Assembly (NCBI RefSeq): GCF_002797975.1 | Contig: NZ_PGET01000001.1 | Coordinates: 930,001-994,000 of the forward strand | Length of the DNA: 64,000 bases | Origin: [Clostridium] celerecrescens 18A | GTDB taxonomy: Bacteria > Bacillota > Clostridia > Lachnospirales > Lachnospiraceae | Direction of reading: 5' to 3' | In this document: positions 10,586-15,888 of the stretch, piece by piece | Numbering within the stretch: position 1 is the stretch's first letter | Layout: each line of letters starts with the position of its first letter | The notes under the pieces: model-generated | What the model was told of the DNA's origin: nothing | The model's input: only the letters and a program-made list of their open reading frames with translations | Database searches by the model: none | Made by a program: the position numbers and the translations under genes

Positions 10586-12529
10586 ATGAAGTACTTAAGA
10601 AACAAGCTTTTATTATTTATCTCTTTGCTGCTAATCTTTACGGTCATATTCCTGACCACTATTTCTTCGATTCTTTATTACCAAAGCTCCATGGCTGAAG
10701 CAGAGCAGAATTCGTCTTATCTGGCAGCAGCATATCAGCAGGGTATCGATTCGGTATTAAATATTTACCGCAGTGAATTAAAGGTAACTGCCTCAAAGAG
10801 CTTTTTAACAGATGGCAGAACAACAGATCCAGAAATAAAACGCCTGCTGGATGAGGAGGCGGAAGCTTCAGGTTTTCATTACATAACAGTAGCGGATGCA
10901 CAGGGAAACAATGACAAAGGGGACCAGATTGCAGATCAGGACTTTTTTATAGAGGCCCAAAAAGGAGTTGTCTATATTTCTGATCCGTTTTTGAATGAAG
11001 ATCAGAAGCTGAGTCTTTATATAGCAGCTCCTATTTCCGGAACCGGAAAAGTATTGTATGGATCTCTTCCTTATGAAGCCATCAGCGGTGAACTGACAAA
11101 AATCAAAATTGGTGAAAATGGTTATGCCTTTGTTATTGATAAGAATGGACTGACTGTTATTCATCCGAACGAAGATGACGTATCCAATCCAAGAGACTAT
11201 TTTGAACTGGCAAAAAAGGATCCCTCCTATGCACCTACTGCTAAAATTTTTAAGGAAATGACTTCCAGCAAAACAGGTACCGGTTTTAGCTATTATAACG
11301 GACAGCGCCGTCTGGTGGGATATGTTCCCTTAGCCGGGCCGGAAGGCTGGTCGGTTGCAGTCACCACACCTTTGACACAGATCGAAGAAAATATGAGCTA
11401 TACTCTGATCATGTGCGTGATCGCCGGGCTGGTTCTGCTTTTAGCAGCCATTGCTATTACCCGTATATTCTCCAAAAAGATCACCGAACCGATTGTGACT
11501 GCGACGCAAAGGATCGAACGACTGGCCAGGGGAGAACTTGATGAAGACATTGAGCCGGTGAGAGGAAAAGATGAAAGTGCACGGCTTATCATGGCTTTGC
11601 AGAATACCATCCATGGATTGCGGTCATATATCATGGATATCTCAAATGTTCTGAATGCCGTGGCTGCTAAGGATTTAACCGTAAGAAGTGCTATTCAGTA
11701 TCAGGGTGATTTCGTTCCGATCCAGTCGGCCCTGGATCAGATCTTAGACTCTTTAAACAGTACCCTATGGAATATCACACAGGCAACGGATCAGGTACGT
11801 TCCAGTTCTGCACAGGTTGCGCTTGGCGGACAGAACCTTGCAGAAAATTCTGCGGAACAGGCGGCGACCACAGAGAGTCTGACCAATTCTCTGGAAATGG
11901 TATCTCATCACATTCAGGAGAATGCAGAGCATTCTCTGGCTATGAAGAACATGACAGAGTCAGCGCTTTTGGAGACTCAGCATGGAGATGAGGAAATGCA
12001 CAGGCTGCAGCAGTCCATGGCAAGCATTGACGCTTCAGCAAAAAAGATCCAAAGCATCATTCACATCATCGATGATATTGCTTTCCAGACCAATATTCTG
12101 GCGCTTAATGCTGCGGTAGAAGCAGCTCGTGCCGGTGAGGCAGGAAAGGGATTTTCCGTGGTGGCAGACGAAGTACGGGAGCTGGCTTCCAAAAGTGCGG
12201 ATGCAGCAAAGCAGACAACTGATCTGATTCACAGCACCATTGAATCTGTAAAACAGGGAAAACAGAACACAGAGCAGACTGCCGATGTGTTTAAGAAGAT
12301 CGTAGAGCAGACGAGTTCCGTTAATACGCTCGTGTCTAGAATATCCGAATCACTGGAGAGCCAGGCAGGCAGTGTGTCTGAACTGGGAGAGGGAATGCAG
12401 AAGATCTCCATGGTCACTCAGGCCAACTCAGCAACAGCAGAGGAAAGTGCGGCGACCAGTGAAGAGCTTTTAAGCCAGATGCAGATGTTAAAAGAGCGGG
12501 TTATGGAGTTTCAGTTAATACAGTCTTAG
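10586..12529 (+). CDS. Methyl-accepting chemotaxis protein (Cache-type)
   Basis: The 647-residue transducer has TM1 near residues 7-28, an extracellular Cache sensor to about 270 (with [20 protein letters not shown], typical of dCache_1), TM2 about 271-293, HAMP, and a long coiled-coil signalling domain. The conserved hairpin tip is [20 protein letters not shown] near residue 495. There is no C-terminal CheR-binding pentapeptide. The receptor would relay an extracellular ligand, often an amino acid or organic acid for this Cache class, to CheA/CheW. It follows the GGDEF/HD-GYP gene but has its own promoter. Start behind GAGGAGGCACTAGAAAC. Confidence 0.95.
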
Positions 12530-12551: not shown

Positions 12552-12580
12552 TTGACAAATAGGCAGGATAATAGTATATT
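12552..12580 (+). promoter_or_regulatory. Strong promoter of the cysteine importer operon
   Basis: TTGACA (12552-12557), exactly 17 bases, TATATT (12575-12580). The start of transcription would fall near 12587, inside the adjacent palindrome. Confidence 0.75.
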
Positions 12581-12595
12581 AAACATATATGTTTA
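12580..12595 (+). promoter_or_regulatory. 16-bp perfect palindrome over the transcription start (candidate operator)
   Basis: TAAACATATATGTTTA is its own reverse complement. The symmetry continues imperfectly on both sides into the -10 box and GTAT. Its position at the start site fits a repressor-binding operator. The cognate regulator is not identified. Confidence 0.45.
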
Positions 12596-12622
12596 GTATG
12601 TATAAGGAGAAATCAAAACGAT

Positions 12623-12709
12623 ATGAAAACGAACTGCGTGTGTAACATGAATCTTAAGATGAATTGTTGCAGCTGTAGATGCTTCATGAGAAGAGATACA
12701 GTTTATTAA
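12623..12709 (+). CDS. 28-residue cysteine-rich leader peptide
   Basis: A short ORF begins MKTNCVCNMN and ends CCSCRCFMRRDTVY. Six of 28 codons are cysteine: residues 5, 7, 15, 16, 18 and 20. It lies 36 bases into the predicted transcript, with AAGGAGA (12604-12610) ahead of the ATG, and is followed about 60 bases later by a strong intrinsic terminator and then by an importer whose binding protein resembles the cysteine-binding protein CjaA. By analogy with amino-acid attenuators, ribosome stalling at Cys codons could sense charged tRNA-Cys. The codon run TGC TTC (12680-12685) is complementary to GAAGCA (12774-12779) in the terminator 5' arm, so the peptide region could take part in an antiterminator. 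Translation is inferred. Confidence 0.65.
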   Translation: MKTNCVCNMNLKMNCCSCRCFMRRDTVY

Positions 12710-12770
12710 CGTGTGCGTTTTGGTATCTGATTTCCAATTTTTTATCCTGTAACACAGGGAAAATAAAGGG

Positions 12771-12808
12771 AAGGAAGCAGGTATATGCGTATACCTGCTT
12801 CCTTTTGC
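12771..12808 (+). terminator. Attenuator/terminator between Cys leader and importer genes
   Basis: A perfect 15-bp stem, AAGGAAGCAGGTATA with TATACCTGCTTCCTT, closes a 4-base loop (TGCG) and runs into TTGCATTT. A small preceding hairpin (CCTGT-AAC-ACAGG, 12746-12758) may be part of the switching structure. It stands in front of the operon it would control, which is the hallmark of attenuation rather than of ordinary termination. Confidence 0.75.
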
Positions 12809-12915
12809 ATTTATTAATATATAACTTATCGGACCTTGCAAAGCGAGTGAAGATAAAAAGGGAGGAAGGTAATCGATGGAACACATAAGTAAAAAGGAGG
12901 GAGAAAGGAAAAATC

Positions 12916-13575
12916 ATGGATTTTGAGTTTATTCGTGCCTATACGCCGCTATATGCAGAGGCGGCAGGTATGACACTTCGAATATCTTTTCTGGGGATCC
13001 TGCTGTCAGCAGCCATTGGCCTTTTGTGCAGCCTGGTTAAGATTTTTAAGATACCGGTGTTAAAGAGTATTGTGAATGGCTATATTGAGGTGTCCAGGAA
13101 TACGCCTCTTTTGATCCAGCTGTTTTTTTTATACTTTGGACTTCCTAAAATCGGTATTGTTTTAAGCTCTGAAAGCTGTGCAGTCACAGGGCTGGCATTT
13201 TTAGGAGGAAGCTACATGGCGGAAGCATTCCGCACGGGAATTGAACAGGTACCGGTTATCCAATCGGAATCGGGTCTCAGCCTGGGACTTACAAAAGGGC
13301 AGGTATTTCAGTATATCATCCTTCCTCAGGCGGTTACCACCTCAGTCCCTGTATTTTGTGCCAACATTATATTTCTTATAAAAGAAACATCGGTGTTCAG
13401 TGCGGTCGCACTGGCTGACTTAATGTTTGTGGCAAAGGATCTGATAGGAATTTATTATAAAACAGATGAGGCCCTCCTAATGCTGGTGGCAGCGTACTTA
13501 ATCATCTTGCTGCCAATATCCTTATTCTGTTCCTGGTTAGAAAGGAGGGTCCGCTATGCAGAATTTGGGAATTAG
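12916..13575 (+). CDS. Amino-acid ABC transporter permease 1 (cysteine importer)
   Basis: The 219-residue polar amino-acid permease has about five hydrophobic helices and the HisM/GlnP-type signature EVSRNTPLLIQLFFLYFGLP. The EAA loop appears as SGLSLGLTKGQVFQYIILPQA and docks on the ATPase. It is first of a four-gene operon (permease, permease, ATPase, binding protein), and its stop overlaps the next start by 20 bases. Substrate is inferred from the operon's binding protein and the Cys leader. Ribosome binding site AAAGGAGGGAG. Confidence 0.9.
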   Translation: MDFEFIRAYTPLYAEAAGMTLRISFLGILLSAAIGLLCSLVKIFKIPVLKSIVNGYIEVSRNTPLLIQLFFLYFGLPKIGIVLSSESCAVTGLAFLGGSYMAEAFRTGIEQVPVIQSESGLSLGLTKGQVFQYIILPQAVTTSVPVFCANIIFLIKETSVFSAVALADLMFVAKDLIGIYYKTDEALLMLVAAYLIILLPISLFCSWLERRVRYAEFGN

Positions 13576-14233
13576 GATACTGTTTGAGGGAAATAATTTT
13601 CTGCGGTTGTTGGGCGGTCTCCTGGTATCACTTAAGATCGCAGTTTTATCCATGGTTTTATCCGTGGGACTTGGAATACTTCTTGGAATGGTGATGACCA
13701 GTAAAAAAAGGCCAGTCCGGTTTTTTACAAGGCTTTATCTGGAGGCAGTCAGGATCATGCCTCAGCTGGTCCTTTTGTTTCTTGTTTATTTTGGAGCTGC
13801 AAAGCATTTGAATGTAAATTTCTCCGGGGAAATGGCCGCGGTCATTGTATTCACCTTTTGGGGGACTGCAGAAATGGGGGATCTGGTTCGAAGCGCTCTG
13901 GAATCCATACCGGTTCATCAGTATCAAAGTGGCTTTGGACTGGGAATGACGGAGCTTCAAGTATACCGGTATATTGTGATTCCTCAAACGATACGCAGGC
14001 TGCTTCCATCGGTCATGAATCTTTTGACAAGAATGATCAAAACCACTTCTCTTGTTGTATTGATCGGCGTGATTGAGGTGGTTAAGGTTGGAAAACAGAT
14101 CATTGACTCCTCCAGGTACACGGTACCTGATGCGGCCCTCTGGGTATACGGAGTGATCTTCATTCTGTACTTTGCGATTTGTTACCCATTTTCCAGGGCT
14201 GCTGCCCTGCTAGATAAAAAATTAAAGGATTGA
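13556..14233 (+). CDS. Amino-acid ABC transporter permease 2 (cysteine importer)
   Basis: The 225-residue partner permease contains [20 protein letters not shown] and the EAA loop [20 protein letters not shown]. The two permeases probably form the heterodimeric channel of the importer. It overlaps the upstream gene and is 4 bases from the ATPase gene, implying translational coupling. Confidence 0.9.
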
Positions 14234-14237
14234 TCAT

Positions 14238-14990
14238 ATGAGTCAGGAAATGATTTTAAAGACAGAGAATCTCAGGAAGTCCTATGAAAACGGGCAGCCG
14301 GTTTTAAAGGATATTTCCTTTACCTTGGAAAAAGGGGAGGTAGTGGTGGTCGTAGGACCTTCCGGCTGCGGAAAAAGTACCTTTTTACGATGTCTCAACA
14401 TGCTGGAGCCCATTGATTCCGGTACCATTCAGTTTAAGGACCGGATCGTTGACAGGGGCAAACGGGATGTTTATGAAATAAGACAGAAGATCGGCATGGT
14501 ATTCCAGAGCTACGATTTATTCCCACATAAGACCATTCTGGGCAATATTATTCTGGCCCCTTTAAAGGTGCAGAAAAGGGATAAAAAAGAGGTGACAGCG
14601 GAAGCAGAACAGCTTCTGGCCAGGGTAGGACTTCTGGATAAAAAGGATTCTTATCCCAGGCAGTTGTCCGGCGGACAGAAGCAAAGAGTGGCTATTGTAC
14701 GGGCGCTTATCATGCATCCGGAGATCCTGCTCTTAGACGAGATCACGGCAGCCCTGGACCCGGAGATGGTACGGGAGGTGCTGCAGGTGGTGTTAGAACT
14801 GGCAAAGGACGGAATGACCATGGTCATTGTCACACATGAGATGGAATTTGCCAAGGCAGTGGCTGACCGTGTCCTGTTCATGGATCAGGGCGTTGTAGTG
14901 GAAGAGAGCCTGCCGGATGAATTTTTTGCTTCACCCCGGACAGAGCGGGCAAAACAGTTTTTAAATACGTTTCATTATGAAGCGTTATAA
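14238..14990 (+). CDS. Amino-acid ABC transporter ATPase (cysteine importer)
   Basis: The 250-residue ATPase of the GlnQ/HisP class has Walker [10 protein letters not shown] near residue 40, Q-loop [11 protein letters not shown], signature [15 protein letters not shown] near 143, Walker [15 protein letters not shown] and switch His in IVTHEM. It powers the two preceding permeases. The Walker B neighbour reads DEITAALDP where most relatives have DEPTSALDP; the catalytic Glu is kept. Confidence 0.92.
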
Positions 14991-15018
14991 AATAAAAAAT
15001 AACATGGAGGATGTAATT

Positions 15019-15888
15019 ATGAAGAAGAAATTACTAGGTGCATTATTAGGCATTACCATGGCGGCAGGCCTTTTGGCAGGCTGCAGCCAGGCAAAGGACA
15101 ATGGAGGAAACACCGGAGGAGCAGCTGCAAAGGCAAGAACCTTATCTGAGATCAAGGAAGCCGGAACCATTAAAATCGGCGTATTCAGCGACAAGAATCC
15201 ATTTGGATATGTGGATTCCAATGGAAAGATCCAGGGCTATGACGTATATTTTGCTAAGCGGCTGGCAAAGGACTTACTTGGCAGTGAGGATAAGGTTGAA
15301 TTCGTATACGTAGAAGCTGCCAGCCGGGTGGAATATTTAAAATCCGCCAAGGTGGATGTGATTTTGGCTAATTTCACAGTTACTGATGAGAGAAAGGAAC
15401 AGGTGGATTTCGCACTTCCTTATATGAAGGTAGCTCTTGGCGTCGTATCTCCTGATGCAGCTCTGATTAACGATGTGGCACAATTAAAGGAAAAGACCCT
15501 TATTGTGGTAAAGGGAACTACGGCTGAAACTTATTTTTCCGAAAATCATCCAGAAGTAAAGCTGTTAAAGTTTGATGAGTATCAGGAAGCTTATGACGCT
15601 CTTCTGGACGGAAGAGGAGATGCCTTCTCTACCGATAATACGGAAGTTCTTGCATGGGCCCTTCAGAATAAAGGATTCACGGTAGGAATCGAGTCCATTG
15701 GAAATCTGGATACCATTGCTCCAGCCGTTCAGAAAGGAAATAAGGATCTTCTGGATTGGATCAACAGCGAGATCGAAACTCTTGGCAAGGAGCAGTTCTT
15801 TCATAAGGATTTTGAGGAGACCCTAAAGCCTGTATATGGAGATGAGATCGATCCTGAAAATCTGGTTGTGGAAGGCGGCCAGGTTTAA
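15019..15888 (+). CDS. Cysteine-binding lipoprotein of the ABC importer (CjaA-like)
   Basis: The 289-residue protein has a lipoprotein signal peptide (MKKKLLGALLG... LLAGC, lipobox LAGC) and a family-3 amino-acid-binding fold. Several stretches match my recollection of Campylobacter CjaA, a structurally known cysteine-binding protein: VEFLKS-like VEYLKSAKVDVILANFT, QVDFALPYMKVALGVV, KGTTAETYF and DAFSTDNTEVLAWA. The start is the ATG at 15019 behind ATGGAGGATGTAATT; an upstream in-frame ATG at 14977 would destroy the signal peptide. It is last in the operon. Cysteine or cystine is the likely ligand. Confidence 0.88.
   Translation: MKKKLLGALLGITMAAGLLAGCSQAKDNGGNTGGAAAKARTLSEIKEAGTIKIGVFSDKNPFGYVDSNGKIQGYDVYFAKRLAKDLLGSEDKVEFVYVEAASRVEYLKSAKVDVILANFTVTDERKEQVDFALPYMKVALGVVSPDAALINDVAQLKEKTLIVVKGTTAETYFSENHPEVKLLKFDEYQEAYDALLDGRGDAFSTDNTEVLAWALQNKGFTVGIESIGNLDTIAPAVQKGNKDLLDWINSEIETLGKEQFFHKDFEETLKPVYGDEIDPENLVVEGGQV

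Follow-up and report, generated by a model that had tools for sequence, protein, structure and literature searches.

A 64,000-nucleotide stretch of the [Clostridium] celerecrescens 18A genome (the window) contains a short cysteine-rich open reading frame and an intrinsic terminator in front of an operon for an amino-acid ABC importer. We think it very probable, from comparison of this region with its counterparts in other genomes, that it is a leader-peptide (ribosome-mediated) transcription attenuator that senses charged tRNA-Cys. An earlier, sequence-only reading of the window had arrived at an attenuator with Cys as its signal. That interpretation gains support from similar leaders at importer loci within and beyond the genus Lacrimispora and from matching leaders upstream of cysK and metN.

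A Cys-codon leader and a terminator precede a probable cysteine importer

Three elements named in the sequence-only reading, namely the promoter, the 28-codon ORF with six Cys codons and the perfect 15-bp intrinsic terminator, are present as it described them (Table 1). The leader region folds with a z score of -5.79 and none of 200 shuffles is equally stable, much of the signal coming from the terminator. Terminator-like sites number two (0.3 expected in shuffles), the second being the same hairpin on the opposite strand.

Table 1. Features of the putative attenuator and the importer operon, in window coordinates
Feature	Position	Strand	Details
Promoter	12552..12580	+	TTGACA (12552-12557), 17 nt, TATATT (12575-12580); 11 of 12 matches to consensus
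Leader RBS, AAGGAG	12604..12609	+	Read directly; 13 nt to ATG, a rather long spacing
Leader peptide ORF, MKTNCVCNMNLKMNCCSCRCFMRRDTVY	12623..12709	+	28 codons, 6 Cys; TAA at 12707-12709
Cys run, C-C-S-C-R-C	12665..12682	+	TGT TGC AGC TGT AGA TGC; putative regulatory codons; relatives use TGT and TGC
Hairpin P, inside the ORF	12672..12702	+	GCTGTA/TACAGT plus CTTC/GAAG; candidate transcription-pause hairpin
Region 1, AGATAC	12694..12699	+	Can pair with 12723-12728
Region 2, GTATCTGATTTCC	12723..12735	+	Candidate antiterminator strand; holds the leader stop codon in most relatives
Intrinsic terminator	12771..12806	+	15-bp stem (arms 12771-12785/12790-12804, 100% complementary), 4-nt loop, then TTTT (U tract)
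Region 3, GGAAGCAGGTAT	12773..12784	+	Pairs with region 2 or the terminator 3' arm
Second short ORF, MEHISKKEGERKNHGF	12876..12926	+	3' of the terminator; SD-led, GGGAGGAAGG in front; 11-nt overlap with the permease start
Amino-acid ABC permease 1	12916..13575	+	First gene under the putative control
Amino-acid ABC permease 2	13556..14233	+	
ABC ATPase	14238..14990	+	Best NCBIfam match TcyN (L-cystine), under cut-off
CjaA-like binding lipoprotein	14977..15888	+	Probable start near 15019

The importer's NCBIfam assignments are imprecise: permease matches are mixed and all equivalogs shown score under their cut-offs. For the binding protein, the nearest solved structures are 2yjp (E 1.6e-93) and 1xt8 (E 8.6e-92), which we take to be gonococcal Ngo2014 and CjaA, respectively, both cysteine binders. 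The CjaA likeness drawn in the sequence-only reading thus holds up and, going by similarity to these two proteins, the operon probably encodes a cysteine importer.

The palindrome that the same reading had offered as a second control layer is present (AAACATATATGTTT, 12581-12594) and lies within a near-symmetric AT-rich 24-mer (12576-12599) over the presumed start site. This element is a possible operator in the window. A general operator role is weakened by the few leader loci that pass a shuffle test for start-site symmetry at p<=0.05 (6 of 20 in Lacrimispora and 2 of 17 elsewhere), so the palindrome is not generally conserved. Repeats resembling TCCTATT..ATAGGA occur at the corresponding place in some other genera (L151 and L188).

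Past the terminator, the second short ORF may couple translation to that of the permease. An overlap in the same frame, by an ORF of 14-17 codons, is found at 13 of 22 Lacrimispora loci and is missing in the remaining nine. On the other side, a chemoreceptor gene (10586-12529) lies directly 5' of the attenuator, and the sequence 5' of the promoter at L013 and L029 resembles, by eye, the 3' end of this gene.

A comparison with NCBIfam gave no match for the window's leader peptide. The RNA of the leader reached no Rfam family at threshold, and a loose threshold gave only sub-gathering matches, none of them T-box or SAM. Elements of this kind are thus likely overlooked by routine annotation. At the Rfam gathering threshold, T-boxes and S-boxes were likewise absent from 73 fetched importer loci and 20 metN loci, and we therefore set aside the idea that the window element is a T-box, an S-box or a member of another Rfam family. 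The sole Rfam match at threshold near importers was a Clostridiales-1 RNA (RF01699) in another genus (L054, 2577-2730). Elsewhere in the window's own genome, six further CCxCRC matches lie, by eye, in a collagen-like gene or unrelated sequence and were rejected as leaders.

The leader is widely conserved in Lacrimispora

The window itself comes from the genus Lacrimispora, and importer loci of the genus include those of L. celerecrescens, L. algidixylanolytica and L. xylanisolvens. Of 25 Lacrimispora genomes, 22 have an orthologue of permease 1, and at 21 of these 22 importer loci a leader ORF with a C-R-C-F motif (C-R-Y-F once) occupies the same position. The exception (L029, in genome G013) retains the promoter, has lost the leader segment and appears to be a natural loss of the attenuator. 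Promoter counterparts can be aligned at the Lacrimispora importer loci (L009 and L010 being incomplete at the left edge of the alignment), and ribosome-binding sites comparable to the window's precede the leader ORFs at the other loci. All 20 distinct Lacrimispora leader loci combine an SD-led leader ORF with a terminator downstream of it. In searches with a covariance model of the element, at least 21 of the 25 genomes each yield a single strong copy (E <=1e-26) among the candidates scored, which always lies at the importer locus; counts from this model are lower bounds, with 125 candidates per genome scored in Lacrimispora and seven per genome in the wider search. Three importer loci from metagenome bins whose titles say Paenibacillaceae (L124, L128 and L132) are 83-84% identical to the window's and belong to the same genus, so that these titles look wrong.

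Within the leader, Cys codons in the upstream part of the run swap between TGT and TGC across Lacrimispora. Over 20 loci, codons in the conserved tail are nearly invariant: all have AGA ahead of the final Cys, and 19 each have TTC and GAT. This pattern agrees with selection that acts on the Cys codons in the upstream part and on the RNA, in the form of hairpin P, further downstream. The conservation of the tail across the genus might instead point to an arrest peptide, a nascent chain (CRCFxRRDTV) that would itself halt the ribosome, the signal being cysteine or something else and not the supply of tRNA-Cys. We regard this as very unlikely: the tail is nearly as fixed in its codons as in its peptide, which is what hairpin P would lead one to expect, and the upstream Cys codons interchange. 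Moreover, the tail is absent, by eye, from most leaders of other genera, and Met largely replaces Cys at metN. Sensing of tRNA-Cys through the codon run remains our preferred reading.

A covarying terminator and a candidate antiterminator

For analyses of RNA structure we aligned 21 sequences, comprising 20 from Lacrimispora and L052. Two further sequences (L135 and L154) were dropped from this alignment (A2), their terminators having been misplaced in alignment A1. Terminator positions are paired in 99.0% of cells, five pairs show two-sided changes and the covariation score is unmatched in 500 shuffles. Hairpin P is paired in 98.1% of cells across the 21 sequences, compared with 27-54% in slid controls, and shows one two-sided change. 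RNAalifold selects hairpin P together with the terminator.

Several alternative pairings were evaluated. Region 2 can pair with region 3 in 94.4% of cells over 12 pairs (31-57% in slid controls), with no two-sided changes because region 2 hardly varies. Compared with shuffled leader tails, the energy of the region 2:3 duplex has a mean z of -1.20 at 37 importer loci. Among these, the 17 loci outside Lacrimispora have a mean z of -1.34, four of them at p<=0.05. At 18 metN leaders from outside Lacrimispora the duplex is not clearly beyond shuffled sequence (mean z -0.43), and the same is true of most Lacrimispora metN and cysK leaders examined.

The sequence-only reading had proposed a different alternative fold, between TGCTTC (12680-12685) and GAAGCA (12774-12779) in the terminator 5' arm. 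This complementarity is present and conserved, with 97.6% of cells paired over six pairs (43-67% in slid controls). It shows no two-sided changes, and a ribosome held up at the Cys codons would cover TGCTTC, which argues against it as the main antiterminator and leaves region 2 as the better candidate. A pairing of regions 1 and 2, which might act as an anti-antiterminator, is formed in 86.5% of cells (14-56% in slid controls); this role is weakened by the lack of covariation support. The covariation test suggested by the earlier reading thus has a divided outcome: the terminator is backed by covariation, whereas the antiterminator is backed by conservation and energy, without covariation and not at metN.

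The position of the leader stop codon relative to region 2 bears on how a ribosome might choose between these folds. Among 23 loci modelled, the stop codon lies within region 2 in 18, the ORF ends 24-27 nt past the start of region 2 in four, and only in the window does the ORF end upstream of region 2. In 22 of 23 loci, a ribosome at the ORF end would thus sit on region 2 or have recently passed over it, and modelled region 2:3 pairing there is <=0.28. With the ribosome placed at the run's first Cys codon, modelled region 2:3 pairing goes up at 18 loci, is equal at three and goes down at two; at several loci it stays low (<=0.25).

These features suggest the following mechanism. RNA polymerase would start at the promoter and a ribosome would translate the leader behind it. 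When Cys-tRNA is ample, the ribosome would clear the Cys run and translate as far as the stop codon; in relatives of the window it would by then occupy region 2 or have passed it. With region 2 kept from region 3, the terminator would form and the importer would be off. Under a shortage of Cys-tRNA, the ribosome would instead stall in the Cys run and leave region 2 free. Region 2 would pair with region 3 before the terminator 3' arm is made, and polymerase would presumably continue into the importer genes.

The window's own leader ends early

The near relatives L009, L010 and L013 have leaders of 35 codons that end ...DTVYLRVRFGI*, compared with 28 codons in the window. Codon 29 is TAA in the window and TTA in the nearest relatives. 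At the 20 other Lacrimispora leader loci the ORF extends into or past a TATCTGA-type sequence, and the window alone stops earlier. The run itself also varies, reading CCSC in the window and L015 and CCCC in the three near relatives.

In the fold model of the window, region 2:3 pairing is 1.68 with a ribosome at the stop codon and 1.17 without a ribosome. The early stop would thus leave region 2 free even with a ribosome at the stop, so that raised basal read-through is predicted. Attenuation may therefore be weaker in the window than in its relatives, and a nonsense difference in this strain may have made the importer partly independent of cysteine. The TAA may represent strain variation or a sequencing error.

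Cys leaders occur at related importers in other genera

We next considered importer loci more broadly. Deduplication by the last 150 nt upstream gave 148 distinct loci, 21 from Lacrimispora and 127 from other clostridial genera, with four distant paralogues (L034-L037) excluded. Strict leaders were defined as SD-led ATG ORFs, 8-60 codons long, in which some stretch of six residues contains three or more Cys. By this rule, 19 of the 127 non-Lacrimispora loci have a Cys leader, compared with none on the antisense strand and 0.13 expected from dinucleotide shuffles (ATG starts only; 0.6 when ATG, GTG and TTG starts are allowed). Several of the 19 are mutually related (for example L055/L136, L151/L175 and L197/L198), so they represent fewer than 19 independent cases. 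In a scan of all twenty amino acids, Cys alone stands out, followed by Met (5 observed and 0.57 in shuffles) and Phe (4 and 0.7). At the remaining 108 of the 127 loci, the sequence immediately upstream holds no Cys leader that passes this rule.

Of the 19 leaders, 17 have a terminator behind them, compared with 45 of 109 leaderless loci, which include L029 (Fisher p 1e-4; the stretches searched differ slightly between the two groups). At the two leaders that fail the terminator rule (L080 and L175), hairpins with looser T tracts can be discerned by eye. The succession of Cys-rich ORF and terminator that the sequence-only reading had put forward to be sought in related genomes is therefore found within Lacrimispora and beyond it.

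These counts bear on the possibility that the window holds an ordinary intergenic terminator and an ORF that arose by chance, so that control of the importer would rest entirely with its promoter. The near-symmetric start site and the terminators at leaderless loci are in keeping with such an arrangement. Against it, the conserved promoter of the importer and the leader are both upstream of the terminator, and leader counts are well over those of shuffles and antisense sequence. We judge this explanation exceedingly improbable and retain attenuation by the leader.

Leader sequences diverge considerably between genera. Cys spacing is variable, most leaders of other genera are without the Lacrimispora tail and, by eye, the common feature is mainly the Cys runs. 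A DNA pattern for the Lacrimispora leader found no leader among 395 other family genomes, and the leader peptide sequence thus looks genus-bound. CRCFxRRD was rejected as a family-wide motif: its DNA pattern occurs in 14 of 397 family genomes, two of which are Lacrimispora leaders (the window's own and that of G016). Of the other 12 matches, six were ruled out by context and six by reading frame alone.

Sister leaders at metN and cysK track the downstream pathway

The covariance model also recovers elements with Met/Cys leaders before metN in other genera (L232, L233 and L234), exemplified by the L232 leader MKTFNHQNTNQNMMMMVGCVNMCMMCMMNMAYLRMRRII, and another Met/Cys leader before a gene that is metQ-like by eye (L231). 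Within Lacrimispora, Met/Cys leaders are found at 23 of 23 metN loci, the window's own genome included, and at two second metN copies. In that genome, metN (G000:C1:1211649-1212626, L266) has the Met/Cys leader MNQWRAMQMNMNKMNGMCMMMCRVSECIKIR and a terminator. MetN from L232 and from the own genome, and the own-genome MetQ, match MetN/MetQ models under curated cut-offs.

For metN in other genera, matches in 134 family genomes provided 90 upstream regions, 89 of them long enough. Met is enriched in short ORFs at these 89 loci (15 observed and 0.05 in shuffles), with Cys second by ratio (5 and 0.4). The Cys-versus-Met contrast between importer and metN loci has a Fisher p of 6e-4, in a comparison where importer counts include the start Met and metN counts exclude it.

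A similar situation is encountered at cysK, whose product scores over the cut-off of TIGR01139. Thirty cysK loci were fetched; 16 met the strict SD rule and five (L369, L371, L372, L374 and L382) were added on reading. CCCQAVC-type leaders precede 21 of 23 close orthologues, including the own-genome copy, versus none of seven fetched paralogues of about 71% identity. In front of the own-genome cysK (G000:C1:567081-568004, L369) lie a leader containing RCCCQAVC and a terminator. Beside cysK in another genome, a second leader (CCCCCKC) with a hairpin and T tract precedes a gene for a 328-aa protein (L398, G002:C1:512000-516500) that by eye looks like a glutathione-dependent reductase and has no NCBIfam match. 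A further CCCC leader, MKNTMVSTRNNHSASFEKMDCCCCKTVCICMNTACFCMY, with a hairpin and T tract has no assignable gene directly behind it (L397, G009:C1:4225050-4229050).

Cys-rich peptides could alternatively sense metal or redox state, in trans or via the leader, without any counting of codons. Cys clusters are able to bind metal, and a leader before a reductase-like gene would suit a redox role. We find this highly unlikely given that the methionine importer has Met runs in place of Cys runs, that Cys spacing varies and that nearly every leader has a terminator after it. With Cys leaders at the importer and cysK and Met/Cys leaders at metN, codon runs thus seem to track the downstream pathway, which favors attenuation through codon sensing.

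Relation to known attenuators

Classical leader-peptide attenuators are found at the trp, his and leu operons of Escherichia coli. The system described here shares with them an SD-led short ORF with a codon run, an intrinsic terminator and a competing antiterminator, the last a candidate in this case. As in textbook trp, a ribosome at the stop codon would mask the antiterminator strand, here according to modelling. It differs from the E. coli systems in that the codon is Cys (Met/Cys at metN), importers are controlled and the region 1:2 pairing is poorly supported.

Cys-codon runs upstream of cysteine-related genes are a feature shared with actinobacteria and mycobacteria, to judge from the accessible portions of the literature cited below. 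Mycobacterial poly-Cys ORFs are reportedly leaderless, as the title of Canestrari et al. 2020 has it. Compared with that leaderless attenuator as so described, the window's ORF is SD-led and followed by a terminator, its start site being presumed. Available text on actinobacterial Cys leaders before sulfur and cysteine genes describes them as being without conserved terminator hairpins (PMC1262725). Excerpts on mycobacteria describe Cys-rich uORFs upstream of sulfur and cysteine genes as proposed or reported to be cysteine-responsive (PMC4633059, PMC9094748), and the cysteine genes of M. smegmatis are cited as subject to translation attenuation in the accessible part of PMC13236596.

A Streptomyces lividans leader, metL, precedes metNIQ and, in the available text, is a mixed Met/Cys peptide (...CMCRRMCAF) that is leaderless and has no typical intrinsic terminator (PMC8079986). 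The Met/Cys run before metNIQ is shared, whereas the clostridial leaders are SD-led and have a terminator. Histidine leader peptides at hisS/hisZ in Bacilli are presented, in the accessible part of the source, as attenuators replacing a T-box (PMC2965389); leader-peptide attenuation in Firmicutes is common to both cases, but the amino acid there is histidine and that text describes no Cys/Met leader. In Campylobacter jejuni, the short ORF CJsORF19 (MMYQMR) before the methionine importer gene Cj0772c is, in the part available, proposed only (PMC11955535). It too is short, rich in Met and located ahead of a methionine importer gene, though it has six residues and belongs to Campylobacter.

The sequence-only reading named no described clostridial example of this form, and our search of the open-access literature, with most subscription papers outside its scope, likewise found no clostridial Cys/Met leader-peptide attenuator. 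The mechanism is thus a known one, and what is most likely new, as far as the open-access literature shows, is Cys/Met leader-peptide attenuation in Clostridia.

Implications for sulfur amino-acid control in Clostridia

In other Firmicutes, such genes would be controlled by T-boxes or S-boxes. Our comparisons make it reasonably likely that Clostridia, chiefly Lachnospiraceae, instead place a sulfur amino-acid regulon on leader-peptide attenuators, in which one RNA scaffold has been adapted to different amino acids through an exchange of the codon run, with Cys codons for the cysteine importer and for cysK and Met/Cys codons for the metNIQ genes of some genera, and from which the window's nonsense difference may partly release the importer. 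The proposed parts of this scaffold are an in-ORF CTGTA/TACAG hairpin, a TATCTGA strand over the stop codon and a CAGGTA terminator.

Cys-directed attenuation is known from actinobacteria, where the accessible parts of the sources place it without an intrinsic terminator, and the clostridial trp-type version would differ in this respect. That related elements carry different codon runs offers a natural test of codon sensing, and short Cys/Met-rich ORFs could be used as evidence on the substrates of unassigned transporters. If these interpretations are true, leader peptides, besides T-boxes and S-boxes, would govern sulfur amino acids in Clostridia.
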